Below, one piece after another: positions 41,738 to 50,386 of a DNA stretch of 64,000 nucleotides (positions are counted from its first letter, which is position 1; every line of letters begins with the position of its first letter). Source of the stretch: Gammaproteobacteria bacterium (GTDB lineage: Bacteria; Pseudomonadota; Gammaproteobacteria; HTCC5015); NCBI GenBank assembly GCA_013817245.1, contig JACDDA010000002.1:218252-282251 (forward strand), read 5' to 3'. A model generated the notes under the pieces. The model saw only the letters and a program-made list of their open reading frames with translations. It was not told where the DNA came from and made no database searches. A program made the translations under genes and the position numbers.

Positions 41738-41853
41738 AATGCGTCAGCACGCTTAGTCATCAAACCGTCATATTTAAAATATAAAGCTGTAACACTCGTT
41801 CGCCAAAATCCGCTTGTTTTTAATTGTAACCAACCATCAAGGGTGGATAGCTC

Positions 41854-43158
41854 ATGAAGAATGTACGTACATTGTTGATCGCTTCTGCGGTAGCGGCCAG
41901 CGTAGTATCCCCAATGGCAGCAGCTGAACTAAAAGTTTATGGTAAAGCTAGCTTGTCATTGGAAAATGCAGAAACCAAAGGCATTTCAAGCGTTAGATAT
42001 TTAACAGCGGGTGATGCGGCAAGCCGTGTTGATACCACCACTTTAGATGATAAATGGCAAGTAACCAGCCATGCATCACGTTTTGGTGTCAAAGGTGATA
42101 ATGAATTAAATGATTGGTTGAAAGCTGTATACATCATGGAATGGGAAATAGACATGGCTGATAACACCAATAGCAGCGCTGACCACATCAAAGCGCGTAA
42201 TCAGTATGTTGGTTTAAAAAGTAATTCCTTCGGTGAAATCATTATTGGTCGTAACGATACGCCAGTAAAAACTGCACAAGGTAAAATTGATTTATTTAAT
42301 GATTTGCCGGGTGACATTAAAAACGTCATGGAAGGTGAACAACGTCAAAACAATATGATTCAGTACAGCACGCCTAATTTCTTGGATCTTGTGCAAGCTA
42401 AATTGATGTTAGTGCCTGGTGAATCTGGTGCGCAAGGTTATGACGATCCGTCAACTGCCGCTAAAGATTGCGATACGCTTTCTACGCCTGAAGATGAATG
42501 CACACTGAGCGTACGCGATGGTATTGCTGATGGTAAGTCGCTCTCTGTTGTTGTTGAACCTGGTAATTTTTATATTGCAGCAGCAGTGGATATGGACATG
42601 CCAGCAAAAAATAGCGGTACCAATTTCACTATTAAAAATGGTGGTGGTGCAGCAATTGACTATACCCCAAATCAAGGTTTTAACGGTTATACATCCGCTT
42701 TTCGTTTTGTTGACACTACGCGTTTAGTGTTTATGTATAAAGTAAAAAGCTTTGGTGGTGGTGTGTTAGTGCAAAGCTCGGAATTGTCCAATACCAATGG
42801 AAACGTTGCAGCAAATACAATTACTGCTGCTAATCCTAATGCTAGAAGTAATCCGGGCAAAGAAGAGTCAATTATGTTTAGTGGTTATTACAAGTTAGCC
42901 TTCGCTAAATTTAAGGGTCAGCTGATTGAAACTGAGAATTTTGCAGGTGATGATATTGATGCGACTTCATTAAGCGTTGGCGTAGACTTCCAATTGGGTG
43001 AAAAAACCATATTGGGTGTCTATAACACGCAAAATGAGTTCGAACACAATGGCGTTTCGATTGCCAATTTTGATGGTTTAGGTAATGCCTATGCTGCTAA
43101 TGCCGGCACCGTAAGCGAAGTAAACACCTTCGGTGTGAATTTAGAACATAGTTTCTAA
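41854..43158 (+). CDS. Gram-negative general porin
   Basis: The 434-residue protein starts with a signal peptide (KNVRTLLIASAVAASVVSPM and AAA) and continues AELKVYGKASLSLENAE, the typical first porin strand. It has the porin pattern SRFGVKGDNELNDWLKAVYI, QYVGLKSNSFGEIIIGRNDT and repeated aromatic-ended strands, and ends NLEHSF with the terminal Phe signal for outer-membrane assembly. It should form a 16-strand trimeric channel with unknown solute preference. Its own promoter region and a strong terminator make it a single-gene unit. Confidence 0.93.
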   Translation: MKNVRTLLIASAVAASVVSPMAAAELKVYGKASLSLENAETKGISSVRYLTAGDAASRVDTTTLDDKWQVTSHASRFGVKGDNELNDWLKAVYIMEWEIDMADNTNSSADHIKARNQYVGLKSNSFGEIIIGRNDTPVKTAQGKIDLFNDLPGDIKNVMEGEQRQNNMIQYSTPNFLDLVQAKLMLVPGESGAQGYDDPSTAAKDCDTLSTPEDECTLSVRDGIADGKSLSVVVEPGNFYIAAAVDMDMPAKNSGTNFTIKNGGGAAIDYTPNQGFNGYTSAFRFVDTTRLVFMYKVKSFGGGVLVQSSELSNTNGNVAANTITAANPNARSNPGKEESIMFSGYYKLAFAKFKGQLIETENFAGDDIDATSLSVGVDFQLGEKTILGVYNTQNEFEHNGVSIANFDGLGNAYAANAGTVSEVNTFGVNLEHSF

Positions 43159-43298: not shown

Positions 43299-44303
43299 TT
43301 ACAAACCCGCTGATACAAATTGATCGCGCAAACGATTGGCGCAGGCTTGCCAGCTTTGTTGCAAAGCAAAATCTCGACAGGCTTGTCGATCTAGTTTTAG
43401 CGCGCCTTCAATAGCAAGGGCGAGATTCTCGTTTAACACGCCGGTAATGCCTTGTTGTACGACATCAAGCGGGCCCGGCACTGGATAGGCTGCCACGGGC
43501 GCACCGCACGCCATGGCTTCTAACATGACTAAACCAAAGGTATCGGTGCGTGATGGAAATACAAACACATCGGCCTTTTGAAAATAGTCGCGTAACTCCG
43601 CGCCGTATTTAAAGCCGACAAACTCTGCATTCGGGAAACGTTTTTGAAAACCAACACGACTAGGGCCGTCGCCGACAATAATTTTGTGGCCGGGGATGTC
43701 TAGTTTTAAAAAATCATCAATGCTTTTTTCCACCGCTACGCGGCCGACGTAGATCATCACCGGATTTTTCGGGTCGGTCGGTTTACGATTAGGATTGGGG
43801 TAATAAAGCTGAGTATTAACACCGCGGCCCCACACCACCATATTATTAAACCCTTGCTGTTTTAAATCACGTTCCATGCTGGGCGTGGTGACCATGATTT
43901 TTTGACTGGGTTTATGAAACCAACGGAGAAAAGCATAACCACTGGAAACGGGGATGAGTGATAAACGTTTATTAATGTATTCAGGAAACTTAGTATGAAA
44001 CGAAGTAGTGAATTTATAACCGCGTCGCGTCATATAATGCCGCGCCGCGATGCCTAAGGGGCCTTCAACAGCGATATGCATAAAGTCGGGTTGAAATGCT
44101 TTGATATGTTTGCCGACATCCCATAAATTTAAGCTCAGATCAATTTCTTCATAACCCGGGCACCTAAACGATGTAAACAAACCGGGTTGCAAAATTAAAA
44201 TTTCAAAACCTTGTTTTTCTAATTCGTGCGTGACGTTTTTGATCGTGGTGACTACGCCATTTGTTTGTGGTTCCCAGGCATCGCTTACAATTAATAATTT
44301 CAT
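43299..44303 (-). CDS. Glycosyltransferase family 4, Agt-like glycolipid synthase
   Basis: The 334-residue GT-B enzyme has the GT4 N-terminal start LLIVSDAWEPQTNGVVTTIK and the acceptor helix FHTKFPEYINKRL. In the C-terminal nucleotide-sugar domain are VGRVAVEKSIDDFLKLDIPG and FPSRTDTFGLVMLEAMACGA with the E-x7-E motif. It follows a PlcP-like gene with a 4-base overlap. Such pairs in Sinorhizobium and marine bacteria make glycolipids from diacylglycerol when phosphate is short. The sugar donated (glucose, galactose or glucuronate) is not shown by the sequence. Confidence 0.85.
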   Translation of the reverse strand: MKLLIVSDAWEPQTNGVVTTIKNVTHELEKQGFEILILQPGLFTSFRCPGYEEIDLSLNLWDVGKHIKAFQPDFMHIAVEGPLGIAARHYMTRRGYKFTTSFHTKFPEYINKRLSLIPVSSGYAFLRWFHKPSQKIMVTTPSMERDLKQQGFNNMVVWGRGVNTQLYYPNPNRKPTDPKNPVMIYVGRVAVEKSIDDFLKLDIPGHKIIVGDGPSRVGFQKRFPNAEFVGFKYGAELRDYFQKADVFVFPSRTDTFGLVMLEAMACGAPVAAYPVPGPLDVVQQGITGVLNENLALAIEGALKLDRQACRDFALQQSWQACANRLRDQFVSAGL

Positions 44304-45091
44304 GAAGCAATAGCCTCCTCGGCGAGATCCGTTTCGTTTTCTAAATGAGTCCAATGCACTAATTCAATATGGCCGTTGAAGTCTTCGATTAAAGCGGTGC
44401 AAGATTCAACCCAGTCACCACAATTGTAATAATCGATATTATCAATCCGTCGAATTTCGGCGTGGTGAATGTGACCACAGACAATGCCGTCATAACCACG
44501 GCGTTTGCATTCGTCGGCTAACGCTTGTTCATAATCACCAATAAAGCTGACTGCTTGTTTGACGCGATGTTTTAAATAACCGGACAATGACCAGTAACCA
44601 TAACCAAAATGTTGTCGGCAATAATTAAACCAGCGATTAAGCAGCAAAGAAAATTCATACGCTTTGTCGCCGAGGATCGCCAACCATTTATGATAACGCA
44701 CGACCACGTCAAATTCATCACCATGCACGATTAATAAACGTCGACCATCACGCGTCAGGTGCGCGGCGCGATCCACTAAATGTATATTGCCAAAATCAGT
44801 ATCGCTATATTTACGAAGGAATTCGTCATGATTACCGGTTACATAGGTAACCGTCGTTTCGCGTTTCGCCATAGTCAAAATACGGCGAATAACATTGCTA
44901 TGAGATTGTGGCCAATAAGCGGATTTACGCATGCGCCAGCCGTCAATAATATCGCCGACCAGATAAAGATTTTCACAGTGATGAGATTTTAAAAATTCGG
45001 TGAGATATTCTGCTTTGCAACCGCGGGTGCCAAGATGGGTGTCTGATATCCAAATAGTGCGGACGCGCCGTTTCTTTTTTGATTCACTCAT
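44300..45091 (-). CDS. PlcP-like metallophosphoesterase (phospholipase C type)
   Basis: The 263-residue protein is a calcineurin-like phosphoesterase with the metal motifs WISDTHLGTRGCKAEYL (D-x-H), LVGDIIDGWRMRKSAYWPQS (GD), GNHDEFLRKY (GNHD), and VCGHIHHAEIR (GH-x-H). The wording of these motifs matches PlcP of Sinorhizobium, which cuts phospholipids to diacylglycerol under phosphate starvation. LpxH of lipid A synthesis is the related alternative. The downstream Agt-like gene and the Pho-like sites before it favour PlcP. The gene leads a two-gene operon and is divergent from the OlsF-like gene. Confidence 0.82.
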   Translation of the reverse strand: MSESKKKRRVRTIWISDTHLGTRGCKAEYLTEFLKSHHCENLYLVGDIIDGWRMRKSAYWPQSHSNVIRRILTMAKRETTVTYVTGNHDEFLRKYSDTDFGNIHLVDRAAHLTRDGRRLLIVHGDEFDVVVRYHKWLAILGDKAYEFSLLLNRWFNYCRQHFGYGYWSLSGYLKHRVKQAVSFIGDYEQALADECKRRGYDGIVCGHIHHAEIRRIDNIDYYNCGDWVESCTALIEDFNGHIELVHWTHLENETDLAEEAIAS

Positions 45092-45135
45092 GCCGATACC
45101 TGCTACGAGACGCGGCTGAGAATAATAGGCTTTGA

Positions 45136-45207
45136 TGACAAATTGCTAACTGTCACATGAATTAAATATGACAGTTCATATTTGCTGTAACTGTCACAAA
45201 AATGACA
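45136..45207. promoter_or_regulatory. Cluster of TGTCA half-sites, candidate Pho boxes
   Basis: Five copies of TGTCA or its complement lie in 72 bases between the PlcP-like and OlsF-like starts: 45136-45140, 45150-45155 (CTGTCA), 45169-45174 (TGACAG), 45191-45196 (CTGTCA), 45203-45207. The Pho box of PhoB is a direct repeat of CTGTCAT at 11-base spacing. These copies are spaced 12-22 bases and occur in both directions, so the match is partial. The gene content makes PhoB control plausible. Confidence 0.5.
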
Positions 45208-45252
45208 TGAAGCGTGGCTAAGGTGGCGCCGGCAATGACAGGAGTTATACAC

Positions 45253-46947
45253 ATGTTAGCCACAATGCAGAAGCAGACCTCAGCAATGCTCAATATTTTT
45301 AATATGACTGATAAGGCTTACGTTGATTTGAATCAAGGTCGGCTTAACAATTATTTTATTGATAATTTGTTTCAGGGTTATAACGGTACCGAAGGTTTAG
45401 ATTTTATTGATTACGCCTTAGATCGTTGGAACGTTAAATATTTAAGCACGCAACAAAGCCGTTTAAATATTCCCGCGACCGGCCCCGTGATTCTGGTGGC
45501 GAATCAGCCCGCCAATTTGGCAGATGTATTTGCTTTGCTACATTGTGTCGCTGATGTGCGTGATGATGTGAAGATTGTATTGCAAGGGCATATTGCAGCG
45601 CTGCCCATGTTACAGCGCCGTGTCATTCCCGTGCAGCAACAGGGTAAACATATTAGTCTATCGACGATTCGTGAAATTCAAACTGCATTGCAGGAACAAC
45701 GGGTCATTATTATTTATCCGGCAGCCAAGCCGGCCAAGATCAGCGCCTCTGGCATGAAAGACGGTCGTTGGGGCACTGCGTTTATTCGCTTAGCGATGAA
45801 ATCCGGTGCATCGATTGTAACCGCGTGTATTGAAAGTGGTTCGGCGCGTTTGAAATTGCATTCCAGTATTTTGCCGCCGTTCTTGCATAAGATGGCGGAA
45901 AAGTCGTTTAAGCAACCGTTGTATGAAATAAAAATTAATATTTCAGAATCGATTACCAGCAATGAGCTGATTAAATTACCAGTGGCGTTGCGCGAAAAAG
46001 CCAAATTATTAAAACGTCACTTATATGCTAGCGCAAAAGGTAAGCGTTCTTTATTGTCCACCGAGCGCACTATTAGCCATCCGCAAAATCCATCGGCCGT
46101 GCGTCGCGAATTAGATCAAGCCGATTTATTAGGCGAGACTCAAGATGGCCATCGAATTTTTTTATACGATTACAAAACAGATTCATCGTTGATGCGCGAA
46201 ATTGGTCGTTTGCGTGAAATGAGTTTCCGTGCAGTAGGTGAAGGCACTGGCCTATCACGCGATTTGGATTTATATGATCAATATTATCGACACGTCGTAT
46301 TGTGGGATGAGCGCAATCTCGAAATAGTCGGCGCGTATCGTCTAGGTGAGTCTGCAAACATAATGGCAAATAAAGGTGTAAGCGGTTTATATACCACCAG
46401 CCTGTTTGATTTTATGCCAGGCATGCAACCTTATTTAAATAATGGTTTAGAGTTAGGCCGTAGTTTTGTGCAACCTAAGTACTGGGGTAAACGCAGTTTA
46501 GATTATTTGTGGTTTGGTTTAGGCGCGTATGTGCGTAATCATCCGGAAGTACGTTATTTATTTGGCCCGGTAAGTTTGAGTGATCATTACCCCGTATTAG
46601 CTAAAGATATGTTGATACATTATTACCAGCATTATTACGGCGCCCAAGAGGTGTATGCAAAACCACGTTTGCCGTATGTGATACAAGCAGCAAATGAAAA
46701 TCGCATGCAGAGTTTATTTAAAGGTGATGACGTTGAAGCTGATTTTGTCACCTTAAAAGAACAGCTCATGCATATTAACGTGCGCATTCCTACTTTATAT
46801 AAACAATATACTGAACTCACTGAGCCGGGCGGCAGTCAGTTTTTGGCTTTTAATGTTGATCCTAATTTTGGTTTTTGTATCGATGGTTTAGTGTTGGTCG
46901 ATGTAATGTCAATCCGCGATAAAAAACGTAAACGCTATATCGGTTAA
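45253..46947 (+). CDS. OlsF-like bifunctional acyltransferase (PlsC-like plus OlsB/GNAT domains)
   Basis: OlsF makes ornithine lipid alone: one domain adds a 3-hydroxy fatty acid to ornithine, the other adds the second acyl chain. Here the PlsC-like domain is residues about 60-270 and the OlsB/GNAT-like domain about 285-510 (RLREMSFRAVGEGTG, YRHVVLWDERNLEIVGAYRL, GLELGRSFVQPKYW). The PlsC half has lost its catalytic motifs. HxxxxxD, NHP in relatives, reads ANQPANLAD with Gln85; the FPAGE motif reads YPAAK. The second acylation may need another enzyme. AGGAG lies 8 bases before the ATG at 45253. It is divergent from plcP-agt and stops 1 base before the znuA stop. Confidence 0.8.
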   Translation: MLATMQKQTSAMLNIFNMTDKAYVDLNQGRLNNYFIDNLFQGYNGTEGLDFIDYALDRWNVKYLSTQQSRLNIPATGPVILVANQPANLADVFALLHCVADVRDDVKIVLQGHIAALPMLQRRVIPVQQQGKHISLSTIREIQTALQEQRVIIIYPAAKPAKISASGMKDGRWGTAFIRLAMKSGASIVTACIESGSARLKLHSSILPPFLHKMAEKSFKQPLYEIKINISESITSNELIKLPVALREKAKLLKRHLYASAKGKRSLLSTERTISHPQNPSAVRRELDQADLLGETQDGHRIFLYDYKTDSSLMREIGRLREMSFRAVGEGTGLSRDLDLYDQYYRHVVLWDERNLEIVGAYRLGESANIMANKGVSGLYTTSLFDFMPGMQPYLNNGLELGRSFVQPKYWGKRSLDYLWFGLGAYVRNHPEVRYLFGPVSLSDHYPVLAKDMLIHYYQHYYGAQEVYAKPRLPYVIQAANENRMQSLFKGDDVEADFVTLKEQLMHINVRIPTLYKQYTELTEPGGSQFLAFNVDPNFGFCIDGLVLVDVMSIRDKKRKRYIG

Positions 46948-46948
46948 G

Positions 46949-47911
46949 TTATAGCGTTTGACAGCTAGAAAAACTACTCGCTAATTGTCGTAGCAGTGCT
47001 GGATAGATAGCTTGATTTTGCGTAACACCGCTAACGCCTAAATGGTCTAGTGGGATTTTTTTGATGGCCGTATTTTCCGTTAATAATGCCACGTATTGTT
47101 CGCCCAAGCGTTTTTCATAAAAAACGCAATCTATTTTTGTGTTTAATACCTGCTTGCGTAATTCATTTAAACGGCGCGCGCTAGGAATGTGCTCGTTATC
47201 TAAGGCGACTAATCCTGCGGGCGCTAAGCCATATTCTTTTTCGAAATATTGATAACCGTCATGACTGATAATATAGCGCAGCTTTTTAAGAGGTTGCATT
47301 TCTTTTTGTAAATCTTTTTCTAACGTGCTTAGTTGTGCAATAGCGGCGTTACTATTTTTTTGCCACACAGAAATTTTCGCAGGCGCTACCTTGATAAGGT
47401 GGTTAGTGATTGCCAATACTATTTGTTTCGCGTTCTTAATCGATAACCACATATGCGGGTCGATAGTGTGAAGATTATTTTGTGTATGATCGTGCGCGTG
47501 GTCCGCTGTATGTAAATCAAAACCACGATTTTGCAGAATAGACAACGTCGTTAACGATTGCAGTTGTAAAATCCGAAAGGGTTTGCGAGTGTTAGTGCTG
47601 CCTTCCCAAATACGTCCTTCTAATGTTGGTCCAACACCAATTACTAAATCTGCGTTCATCAACTGTACACGTTGTGAGGGTTTGAGTTGGAAATCATGCG
47701 GGTCAGCATTCGACGTTAACAGTGTTGTGACTGTCGCGTGCTCGCCGGCAACCATACTGGCAAGACTGGCTAAAGGCGCCAAGGTCGCAACAATGTGTAA
47801 GCGGCCACCATTTGTATCTGTAGCAGCTGTAGCCGCATGCAGCGTCGTTGATACGCTTAGTGTCACGCTCAGTAACGCGCTTATATATAGAACAAATAGA
47901 GGTTTGGGCAT
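46949..47911 (-). CDS. znuA: Zinc ABC transporter substrate-binding protein
   Basis: ZnuA binds zinc in the periplasm and delivers it to ZnuBC. The 320-residue protein has a signal peptide (LFVLYISALLSVTLSVST and TLHA). It shows IVATLAPLASLASMVAGEHA, the first His ligand in NADPHDFQLKPSQ, a short His-rich loop (HTADHAHDH), the second in DPHMWLSIKNAK and the third in ISHDGYQYFEKEYGL. It is divergent from znuCB. Cysteine near the C-terminus (SSFSSCQTL) is common in ZnuA. Confidence 0.95.
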   Translation of the reverse strand: MPKPLFVLYISALLSVTLSVSTTLHAATAATDTNGGRLHIVATLAPLASLASMVAGEHATVTTLLTSNADPHDFQLKPSQRVQLMNADLVIGVGPTLEGRIWEGSTNTRKPFRILQLQSLTTLSILQNRGFDLHTADHAHDHTQNNLHTIDPHMWLSIKNAKQIVLAITNHLIKVAPAKISVWQKNSNAAIAQLSTLEKDLQKEMQPLKKLRYIISHDGYQYFEKEYGLAPAGLVALDNEHIPSARRLNELRKQVLNTKIDCVFYEKRLGEQYVALLTENTAIKKIPLDHLGVSGVTQNQAIYPALLRQLASSFSSCQTL

Positions 47912-47961
47912 AGGCTTTCAGTATAATGATCGGCTTGAAATTAAACGTTAATAGGTTGCGT
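47912..47961. promoter_or_regulatory. znuA/znuC divergent promoter region
   Basis: A perfect -10 box TATAAT (47922-47927) stands 34 bases before the znuC ATG. It shows that an in-frame ATG at 47926 is not the start. A Zur operator would be expected in these 50 bases, but I see no clear match to its consensus. Confidence 0.4.
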
Positions 47962-48714
47962 ATGCCGCAAACGCTTTTGGTTGCTGAGCAAGTCACATAT
48001 GAACGTCACGGTCAGTGCATTGTCCATGATGTTTCGCTAAGACTCCAGCCCGCAGAAATTGTTAGTTTAATCGGCCCCAACGGCGCAGGTAAAACGACGT
48101 TGGTGCGTTTACTGTTAGGGTTGGTCGCGCCTACGCACGGACGCATCACACGCAAGTCGGAATTACGCGTTGCTTATTTGCCGCAGCGCTTTACAGCGGA
48201 TCCGGTTTTTCCTATGAGCGTGCAACGCTTTTTGGATGTTGGCGTGCGACACAGTGCTCAGATGCGCATTGATATAATGCGCGAGATTGGTATTGAAGCG
48301 TTGGGCACACGGGCGTTGCATAGTTTATCGGGTGGTGAATTACAACGAACGTTGTTAGCGCGTTGTTTGTTGCAACAACCTGAATGGCTGGTGCTCGATG
48401 AGCCTGCGCAAGGTGTTGATGTTGCAGGGCAGCAATCTTTATATAGTTTGATTGCGCGCATTCGTGATCGTTATGGTTGTGGCATTTTAATGGTGTCACA
48501 TGATTTGCATTTAGTAATGAGCGCCACCGATCAAGTCGTCTGTTTAAATCGCCACATTTGTTGTTCTGGCAGACCAGAATCTATTCGTCAACATCCTGAA
48601 TTTTTACAATTGTTTGGTCCGCATGCGGCACATGATGCGGATGGATTTGCCGTCTATACACATGAACATAATCATCATCATGATTTGCATGGAGATGTCG
48701 TTGATGAACATTGA
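47962..48714 (+). CDS. znuC: Zinc ABC transporter ATP-binding protein
   Basis: The 250-residue ATPase has Walker A GPNGAGKTTLVRLL near residue 39, signature LSGGELQRTLLARCLLQQP, Walker B WLVLDEPAQGVD and the H-loop MVSHDLHLV. The C-terminal tail is rich in His (THEHNHHHDLHGD), which may sense zinc. The last 11 bases overlap znuB. Confidence 0.95.
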   Translation: MPQTLLVAEQVTYERHGQCIVHDVSLRLQPAEIVSLIGPNGAGKTTLVRLLLGLVAPTHGRITRKSELRVAYLPQRFTADPVFPMSVQRFLDVGVRHSAQMRIDIMREIGIEALGTRALHSLSGGELQRTLLARCLLQQPEWLVLDEPAQGVDVAGQQSLYSLIARIRDRYGCGILMVSHDLHLVMSATDQVVCLNRHICCSGRPESIRQHPEFLQLFGPHAAHDADGFAVYTHEHNHHHDLHGDVVDEH

Positions 48715-49522
48715 GTTTTGGCCAGACTTTGTTTGGCGCGCATGGATTGCCGGCGCTTTAATTGCTTTAGTGGCAGGGCCTATGGGTTGTTTGGTTGTAT
48801 GGCAACGCATGGCGTATTTTGGTCACACGTTATCGCACAGTGCTTTGTTGGGTGTCGTTATTGGTTTAACGTTCGGCTTGTCGATTGATGTGGGAATTTT
48901 TTTAGTCTGCATCGCGGTCGGCAGTTTATTGGTGTTATTGCAAAGTAAAACCTTAGCGGCAAATCGCTGGTTACCTAATGACACCTTACTCGGCATTATG
49001 TCGCATAGCTTATTAGCGTTAGGCGTATTGTTGTTGGCTTTGCAACCCAATTGGCGAGTGAATTTAAATAGTTATTTATTCGGCGATATTTTATTAGTCA
49101 GCTGGCACGATCTTATCAGTGTTGCCATTGTGGTATTTATTGCATTAGCGGGTTTGTGGTGGATTTGGAATCGCGTGTTAGCGATTGCTGTGAATGCGGA
49201 TGTTGCTCAGATAGAAGGTGTCGCCGTGCAACGCGTGCGTTTTATCATGATGGTGTTGCTGGGTTTAGTGATGGCCTTGGGTATGAAGTTAGTCGGTATT
49301 TTAATGATTGCATCATTATTAATAGTGCCTGCTGCGAGTGCGCGACCATTTACTAAATCACCGGAAAGCATGGCGATATTGGCAGGAATATTTGCGCTGC
49401 TGGCGGTGAGTTTGGGTTTGGTGCTGTCTTGGTATACGGATGTGCCGGCGGGTTCCGCCATCGTGGTGGTGAGTGCGATAGGATTTTTATGTGCGTTGCC
49501 GTTTGGCCGTAAACAATTTTAA
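48704..49522 (+). CDS. znuB: Zinc ABC transporter permease
   Basis: The 272-residue permease has seven or eight membrane helices and the family motifs LVAGPMGCLVVWQRMAYFGH, TLSHSALLGVVIGLTFGLS, and RPFTKSPESMAILAGIFALL. The ATG at 48704 lies 9 bases after GGAG, inside the end of znuC. The last four codons and stop are part of a 37-bp tandem duplication. Confidence 0.95.
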   Translation: MNIEFWPDFVWRAWIAGALIALVAGPMGCLVVWQRMAYFGHTLSHSALLGVVIGLTFGLSIDVGIFLVCIAVGSLLVLLQSKTLAANRWLPNDTLLGIMSHSLLALGVLLLALQPNWRVNLNSYLFGDILLVSWHDLISVAIVVFIALAGLWWIWNRVLAIAVNADVAQIEGVAVQRVRFIMMVLLGLVMALGMKLVGILMIASLLIVPAASARPFTKSPESMAILAGIFALLAVSLGLVLSWYTDVPAGSAIVVVSAIGFLCALPFGRKQF

Positions 49523-49612: not shown

Positions 49613-50386
49613 TTAGTTTGTAATATTAGCTTGTAATACGGCATGCGCATCCGCTACCCATTGACGCGTGTATTGCGCTAATGCACGTTTATCCCACTGC
49701 GGGTCGAGTTGTTGCACTTGACCGAAATGCACATACACATCAATGATCGGTACTGAAAATACGCGGAAAGCATGTTTAGCAAAAGTATCGTTGCCAATAA
49801 AAGCGAGTTTTTTTTGTGGTAAAGCAGAGCTGCGATATTGCAAGGCAACGGCTTGCACCACTAAACCAAAGTCGGCAGCAGGTTGTAATAAACGGGTTTT
49901 AAAAGGCGCTACTTGATCGCCGTTGGTAGTAGTGCCTTCTGGGAAAAGTAAAATACCTTGTTTATGAATTAGGCGCGTCGCTAAAGCCTCGCGTAATTCC
50001 GTGAATGAATCATGTTTGCCGCGTTTTACAAATAAAGTACCACCATGATAAGCCACCCAACCAATAATTGGCCATTGCCGCACTTCGGCTTTAGAAACAA
50101 ACGAGGCAGATACTAATGATTGCAAGACAGGAATATCTAACCAAGAAATATGATTGGATAAAAACATCGCACTGTCAGTAGCCGGCGTACCCGATACGTG
50201 CACACGTAAACCTAAACGTTTGCATGCACCTTTTGACCAAGCATTAATAGAACGCCATTCGGCTGGGGTTCTCGTTTCGGGAGGATTTTTTAATAAAAAT
50301 AATACTAAGTGGACTCCGCGTAGTACTTGGATAAAAACACTGATGATTCGCCAAAGGCAGCGCAGGGAGCGCCAGAAAGATGTCAC
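49613..50386 (-). CDS. plsC: 1-acyl-sn-glycerol-3-phosphate acyltransferase (PlsC/OlsA-like)
   Basis: The 257-residue enzyme adds the second acyl chain to lysophosphatidate or to a lyso-ornithine lipid. The catalytic HX4D motif is NHISWLDIPVL; the second motif is KAEVRQWPIIGW; the third, LLFPEGTTTNGDQV, is complete; the start has a membrane helix (LWRIISVFIQVLRGVHLVLF). The GTG at 50386 is used: AGGAAAA precedes it and the family N-terminus begins there, whereas the ATG at 50539 lies in the kinase gene. OlsA of Rhizobium has the same fold, so this gene could complete the OlsF-like enzyme whose PlsC half is defective. Confidence 0.88.
   Translation of the reverse strand: MTSFWRSLRCLWRIISVFIQVLRGVHLVLFLLKNPPETRTPAEWRSINAWSKGACKRLGLRVHVSGTPATDSAMFLSNHISWLDIPVLQSLVSASFVSKAEVRQWPIIGWVAYHGGTLFVKRGKHDSFTELREALATRLIHKQGILLFPEGTTTNGDQVAPFKTRLLQPAADFGLVVQAVALQYRSSALPQKKLAFIGNDTFAKHAFRVFSVPIIDVYVHFGQVQQLDPQWDKRALAQYTRQWVADAHAVLQANITN

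Follow-up and report, generated by a model that had tools for sequence, protein, structure and literature searches.

Can one divergent locus bring the synthesis of glycolipid and of ornithine lipid together under phosphate control, and can the OlsF protein encoded there produce ornithine lipid by itself? The question is raised by three genes, plcP, agt and olsF, located on contig JACDDA010000002.1 of a gammaproteobacterial genome, within a stretch of 64 kb that is named here the window and whose positions are used for the coordinates. An earlier note on this DNA had joined the two lipid pathways in a single divergent locus; the arrangement holds, while OlsF alone can hardly suffice for ornithine lipid, since its O-acyltransferase half lacks the catalytic His and most of the invariant residues. 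The locus is probably a PhoB-controlled unit for membrane remodelling, in which OlsF carries a dead O-acyltransferase half and the second acyl chain most likely comes from an OlsA-like enzyme acting in trans.

The plcP-agt pair on the minus strand and olsF on the plus strand lie back to back (Table 1). Both the metallophosphoesterase gene overlapping a GT4 glycosyltransferase gene by ATGA and the divergent gene for a two-domain acyltransferase of OlsF type were found as previously described. The reported cluster of TGTCA half-sites between them also exists, but its figures had to be revised from five half-sites in 160 bp to six TGTCA/TGACA words in 161 bp. The ATG at 45253, with AGGAG directly upstream, is the likelier start of olsF, giving a protein of 564 residues and the 161-bp gap; the GTG at 45214 listed as its start is a mechanical call.

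The two halves of OlsF

The whole protein scores 627.6 bits against the OlsF profile NF052615, narrowly above the cut-off of 620. The score is unevenly divided, 458.6 bits belonging to the C-terminal half and 148.8 bits to the N-terminal half taken alone. Identity to other OlsF proteins is likewise 50% in the C half and 26% in the N half, whereas the others are even between halves. When invariant residues are defined against 21 other OlsF, the C-terminal N-acyltransferase domain keeps the whole set and the N-terminal domain fewer than half (Table 1); the other 21 proteins retain at least 28 of 34 in the latter region. A His residue is the catalytic base in this acyltransferase superfamily; here the NHPxGxxD motif has become NQPANLAD, so that an intact O-acyltransferase active site is missing. 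The same His is kept in all of the about 89 other OlsF and OlsF-like proteins inspected, in sets of 39 and 50 that share a few genomes, the 50 being intact OlsF from one order with about 200 matching genomes.

The N domain reaches 33.7 bits against PF19576, compared with 104.4 bits for the OlsF of Thiomicrospira. Since the reading frame is open, without stops or large gaps in this domain, and PF19576 is still recognised, a decayed domain rather than a frameshift is indicated. No solved structure matching OlsF by sequence was found, and an AlphaFold model built on a two-row alignment was too poor to be used (mean predicted local distance difference test, pLDDT, 41.7). Thus, the N-terminal half looks dead as an O-acyltransferase; with its active site lost, the product of OlsF is probably lyso-ornithine lipid, and a second enzyme would be needed in trans.

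The best candidate for this activity is the product of an OlsA-like gene (49613-50386), located 3 kb from olsF. It shares 28-41% identity with OlsA proteins encoded beside OlsB, and at most 29% identity and 56 bits with PlsC-type proteins; the tree puts it outside the PlsC group (88/95), amid OlsA sequences that are themselves weakly resolved. Its score of 136 bits against the NCBIfam OlsA profile is below the cut-off of 300, OlsA being still the best family. No second OlsF or OlsB was found in the genome (G000), which contains a single NF052615 match.

In a tree of C domains, the OlsF of the locus is placed inside the clade of bifunctional OlsF with an ordinary branch length, and free-standing C domains arose at least twice inside this clade (L191/L192; L190), which suggests that the O-acyltransferase module was repeatedly lost within the OlsF family. 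The genomes carrying these free C domains have an OlsA-like gene elsewhere, and top-ranked Pho boxes are located near the free C-domain genes in L191, L192 and L193. Free-standing OlsF C halves devoid of the O-acyltransferase half were observed in L190 (1647-2633), L191 (5734-6735), L192 (5695-6570), L193, L194 and L195. The evidence is evenly balanced for a more specific proposal, in which the O-acyltransferase half would be a pseudoenzyme, partway back from the one-protein OlsF to a two-protein OlsB/OlsA-like pathway, PhoB governing only the N-acylation, as the committing step, and the second step falling to an OlsA-type enzyme that is constitutive and belongs to another Pfam family.

Some observations weigh against a partner in trans that replaces the lost half. 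The matrix scan described below found no Pho box upstream of the OlsA-like gene, and OlsA-like genes are also present in genomes with an intact OlsF (G001, G009, G275, G368 and G324), so their co-occurrence with loss of the N domain is only suggestive. Moreover, the decay is known from one protein and may be an accident of the species, not conserved by selection. It is unlikely, nevertheless, that OlsF is a normal bifunctional enzyme whose altered N domain O-acylates through other residues and makes ornithine lipid alone: passing the curated OlsF cut-off and being recognised by PF19576 with no stops or large gaps would fit such an enzyme, but the margin over the cut-off is due to the C domain, and 19 of 33 invariant positions are lost, among them the His that pairs with Asp in catalysis, the Gly of the motif and the Glu of FPxGE. 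Conversely, the apparently dead N domain, in a genome without another OlsF or OlsB, could mean that no second acylation takes place and that the pathway stops at lyso-ornithine lipid, with its single chain, or at some other N-acyl amino acid. This outcome too is improbable, given that the nearby OlsA-like gene has intact motifs and that Acinetobacter accumulates no lyso-aminolipid on loss of olsA, so that lyso-aminolipids seem to be short-lived (PMC11828411). The acquisition of the second chain from an OlsA-like enzyme is thus preferred.

Pho boxes and the PlcP-Agt arm

The six words of the gap (45136-, 45151+, 45169-, 45192+, 45203- and 45236-, the sign giving the strand) compare with 0.23 expected, as calculated from 91 words in the whole window. 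A matrix was built from the Escherichia coli MG1655 promoters of phoA, phoB, pstS, ugpB, phnC and phoE, in a larger version of 19 boxes and a stricter one of 14, and both strands were scanned (about 128,000 positions). As the earlier note had anticipated, the gap scores far above background and holds the two best positions of the window with the stricter matrix. Each is a complete Pho box of 18 bp with a spacing of 11 bp, one facing olsF and the other plcP; when the gap was shuffled 2000 times by dinucleotides, neither score was ever reached. The plcP-side box is nearly identical to that of the genome's own pstS, CTGTCAC-ATTT-AATACAT (CTGTCACATTTAATACAT). The expected phoBR genes are also present, in an intact pstSCAB-phoU-phoR-phoB cluster whose PhoB scores 346.9 bits (cut-off 296.2). 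Several related loci also have top-ranked Pho boxes ahead of olsF or plcP, while the scan found none at L162, L166 and L170. Hence, both arms of the locus would be under PhoB control.

The phosphoesterase can be assigned to PlcP, and not to LpxH, on the basis of its low LpxH score, the separate canonical lpxH of the genome, relatives encoded beside agt and the GNHD motif; in this respect the PlcP type proposed previously was borne out, the protein not clustering with LpxH. It reaches 30.9 bits against TIGR01854 (LpxH; cut-off 190), whereas the product of the canonical lpxH, on contig 5 and adjoining one or more cyclophilin genes, obtains 271 bits; LpxI was searched for in the genome and is absent. 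The closest relatives show 69% identity in Pokkaliibacter and 55% in Erythrobacter litoralis, with homologues beside agt. In most of 80 loci from alpha- and gammaproteobacteria, plcP homologues adjoin an Agt-like glycosyltransferase gene, and agt homologues (41-53% identity) mostly follow plcP immediately, in the same orientation. The GT4 enzyme next to plcP thus has its homologues among the glycosyltransferases encoded in plcP-agt operons, with which it was compared. The phosphoesterase gene itself combines linkage to genes for phosphorus-free lipid synthesis with a Pho box. In the genus Erythrobacter, plcP-agt has been linked to the formation of MGDG and GADG (PMC4796936).

Two other explanations concern this part of the locus. 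The TGTCA words could serve a regulator that reads inverted repeats (AACTGTCA-N13-TGACAGTT and CTGTCAC-N4-ATGACA) instead of PhoB; indeed, two of the best words make almost perfect palindromes, and the plus-strand half-sites are 41 bp apart, which is no multiple of 11. However, a distance of 33 bp (3 x 11) separates the half-sites 45169 and 45136 of the minus strand, 18-bp windows of the gap lead the ranking by a matrix trained on E. coli, the plcP-side box is close to that of pstS, and tandem Pho boxes occur at the same place in related loci, making a regulator other than PhoB very unlikely. As for the phosphoesterase, a distant similarity to LpxH (30.9-43.8 bits against the profiles; 52 of 212 residues identical to the genome's own LpxH) might point to a second LpxH or to another envelope hydrolase outside lipid remodelling, but this is extremely unlikely: the genome's canonical LpxH has GNRD, the locus protein has GNHD like its agt-linked relatives, the linkage to agt spans classes, and the two proteins are separate in the tree. 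An identity as the LpxH of this genome was ruled out by the lpxH found elsewhere, together with the comparison of tree and motif.

The sequence itself shows which domains are present, that catalytic residues are lost, and that Pho boxes, phoBR-pst and a separate lpxH exist; from these we infer PhoB binding, substrates, products and the partnership with the OlsA-like enzyme, as follows. In low phosphate, PhoB would act on the back-to-back boxes of the gap and turn both arms on. By the known chemistry of their families, PlcP would remove the head groups of phospholipids to give diacylglycerol, which Agt would then glycosylate. On the other arm, the C-terminal domain of OlsF would use a 3-hydroxy acyl chain to N-acylate ornithine, or an amino acid like it, the N-terminal domain being a pseudoenzyme that performs no O-acylation, and a constitutive OlsA-like enzyme would add the second acyl chain in trans.

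Table 1. Features of the plcP-agt/olsF locus and its surroundings, in window positions
Feature	Position	Strand	Basis
Probable Pho box upstream of the porin gene, four half-sites in 11-bp register	41754..41793	+	Rank 4-6 in the window (best box)
General porin (PF00267), convergent with agt	41854..43158	+	Pfam match
agt-like GT4 glycosyltransferase, 334 aa	43299..44303	-	Pfam GT4/GT1 domains; ATG start overlaps plcP stop (ATGA)
plcP-like metallophosphoesterase, 263 aa, GNHD-type active site	44300..45091	-	Homologues beside agt, LpxH profile score, tree
Promoter region for both directions (161 bp) with six TGTCA/TGACA words	45092..45252		Between plcP and olsF
Additional half-sites keeping the 11-bp register, CAGTTAG-CAAT-TTGTCAT	45135..45152	-	Rank 7, larger matrix
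Pho box facing plcP, CTGTCAT-ATTT-AATTCAT (CTGTCATATTTAATTCAT)	45157..45174	-	Rank 2 (14-box matrix), rank 3 (19-box matrix)
Pho box facing olsF, CTGTCAC-AAAA-ATGACAT (CTGTCACAAAAATGACAT)	45191..45208	+	Rank 1 in the window, both matrices
olsF, two-domain acyltransferase, 564 aa	45253..46947	+	NF052615 OlsF, 627.6 bits
N-terminal O-acyltransferase domain (PF19576-type), degenerate	45253..46023	+	14/33 invariant residues kept
Codon CAG (Gln) at the position of the catalytic His of NHPxGxxD	45505..45507	+	Alignment with other OlsF
YPAAKPAK replacing FPxGEVSR (Gly to Ala, Glu to Lys)	45715..45738	+	Alignment with other OlsF
C-terminal N-acyltransferase domain (GNAT, PF13444), intact	46024..46947	+	55/55 invariant residues kept
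OlsA-like O-acyltransferase (PF01553), candidate partner in trans	49613..50386	-	NHISWLD and FPEG intact; probable GTG start 50386

Recurrence, known systems and neighbouring genes

The joint plcP-agt/olsF arrangement recurs and is not unique to this genome. Among 39 OlsF or OlsF-like loci with wide flanks, 10 have plcP within about 7 kb of the olsF-type gene, in divergent or in the same direction, while we estimate that about 0.2 loci would be expected, given one plcP per genome of about 3.3 Mb. Two-domain OlsF-like proteins also form another clade (L166-L184), with scores of about 300-437 bits, below the OlsF cut-off, and several of its members are directly linked to plcP and agt. Control of plcP-agt by PhoB and PhoB-driven olsF are both already known; their arrangement in one locus seems to be undescribed in the literature, although its parts are known. 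Indeed, olsF is not mentioned in the main text of a survey of plcP contexts, in which six are distinguished (PMC4796936), and the passages of PMC9239053 that deal with olsF contain no plcP-olsF linkage.

The plcP-agt operon corresponds to the 'type 2' context of Sebastian et al. (PMC4796936) and is also found in Pseudomonas aeruginosa (PA3219-PA3218; PMC8528852) and in Methylosinus OB3b (PMC9239053); with these the locus shares agt directly after plcP, an upstream Pho box and PhoBR, and it differs in being divergent from olsF. In Vibrio cholerae, olsF (VC0489) is PhoB-dependent (PMC12186959), and induction in low phosphate through PhoB is expected here as well; however, the V. cholerae protein works alone in E. 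coli, whereas the one described here has a degenerate O-acyltransferase half and adjoins plcP-agt. The aminolipid pathway is split in Acinetobacter baumannii, where olsB is Pho-induced, and olsA is unlinked, has no Pho box and is not Pho-induced (PMC11828411). The two systems have in common a Pho box on the N-acyltransferase gene only and a separate OlsA or OlsA-like gene without one; they differ in that the N-acyltransferase of the locus is of the OlsF type (GNAT half), with the decayed O-acyltransferase half still attached. GlsB of the glycine-lipid pair GlsB/GlsA is a free-standing N-acyltransferase resembling the C-terminal half of OlsF (PMC11631085); the OlsF of the locus falls well short of the GlsB cut-off (173 bits, with 300 required) and retains its N-terminal half as a remnant.

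On the far side of agt, the presence of four Pho half-sites upstream of the porin gene suggests that its product is probably a phosphate-starvation porin, and a further member of a Pho-controlled island that may extend beyond 43299-46947. Beyond olsF, a znuA gene is convergent with it and divergent from znuC-znuB type genes (46949-49522), so that a zinc uptake system adjoins the lipid locus. Elsewhere in the genome, an aquaporin-family gene (L140 10690-11373) is divergent from phoB, and the best Pho box of the 20-kb L140 stretch (L140 10650) faces this gene.

If the proposed reading is correct, three phosphorus-sparing membrane enzymes are encoded together in one divergent PhoB-controlled locus. 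An OlsF call above the curated cut-off is no guarantee of a bifunctional enzyme, and genome surveys that take olsF as enough for ornithine lipid can err. Finally, the locus lends itself to a direct test of how a fused enzyme comes apart, with its decayed domain and OlsA-like gene set beside the complete losses of the same half elsewhere.

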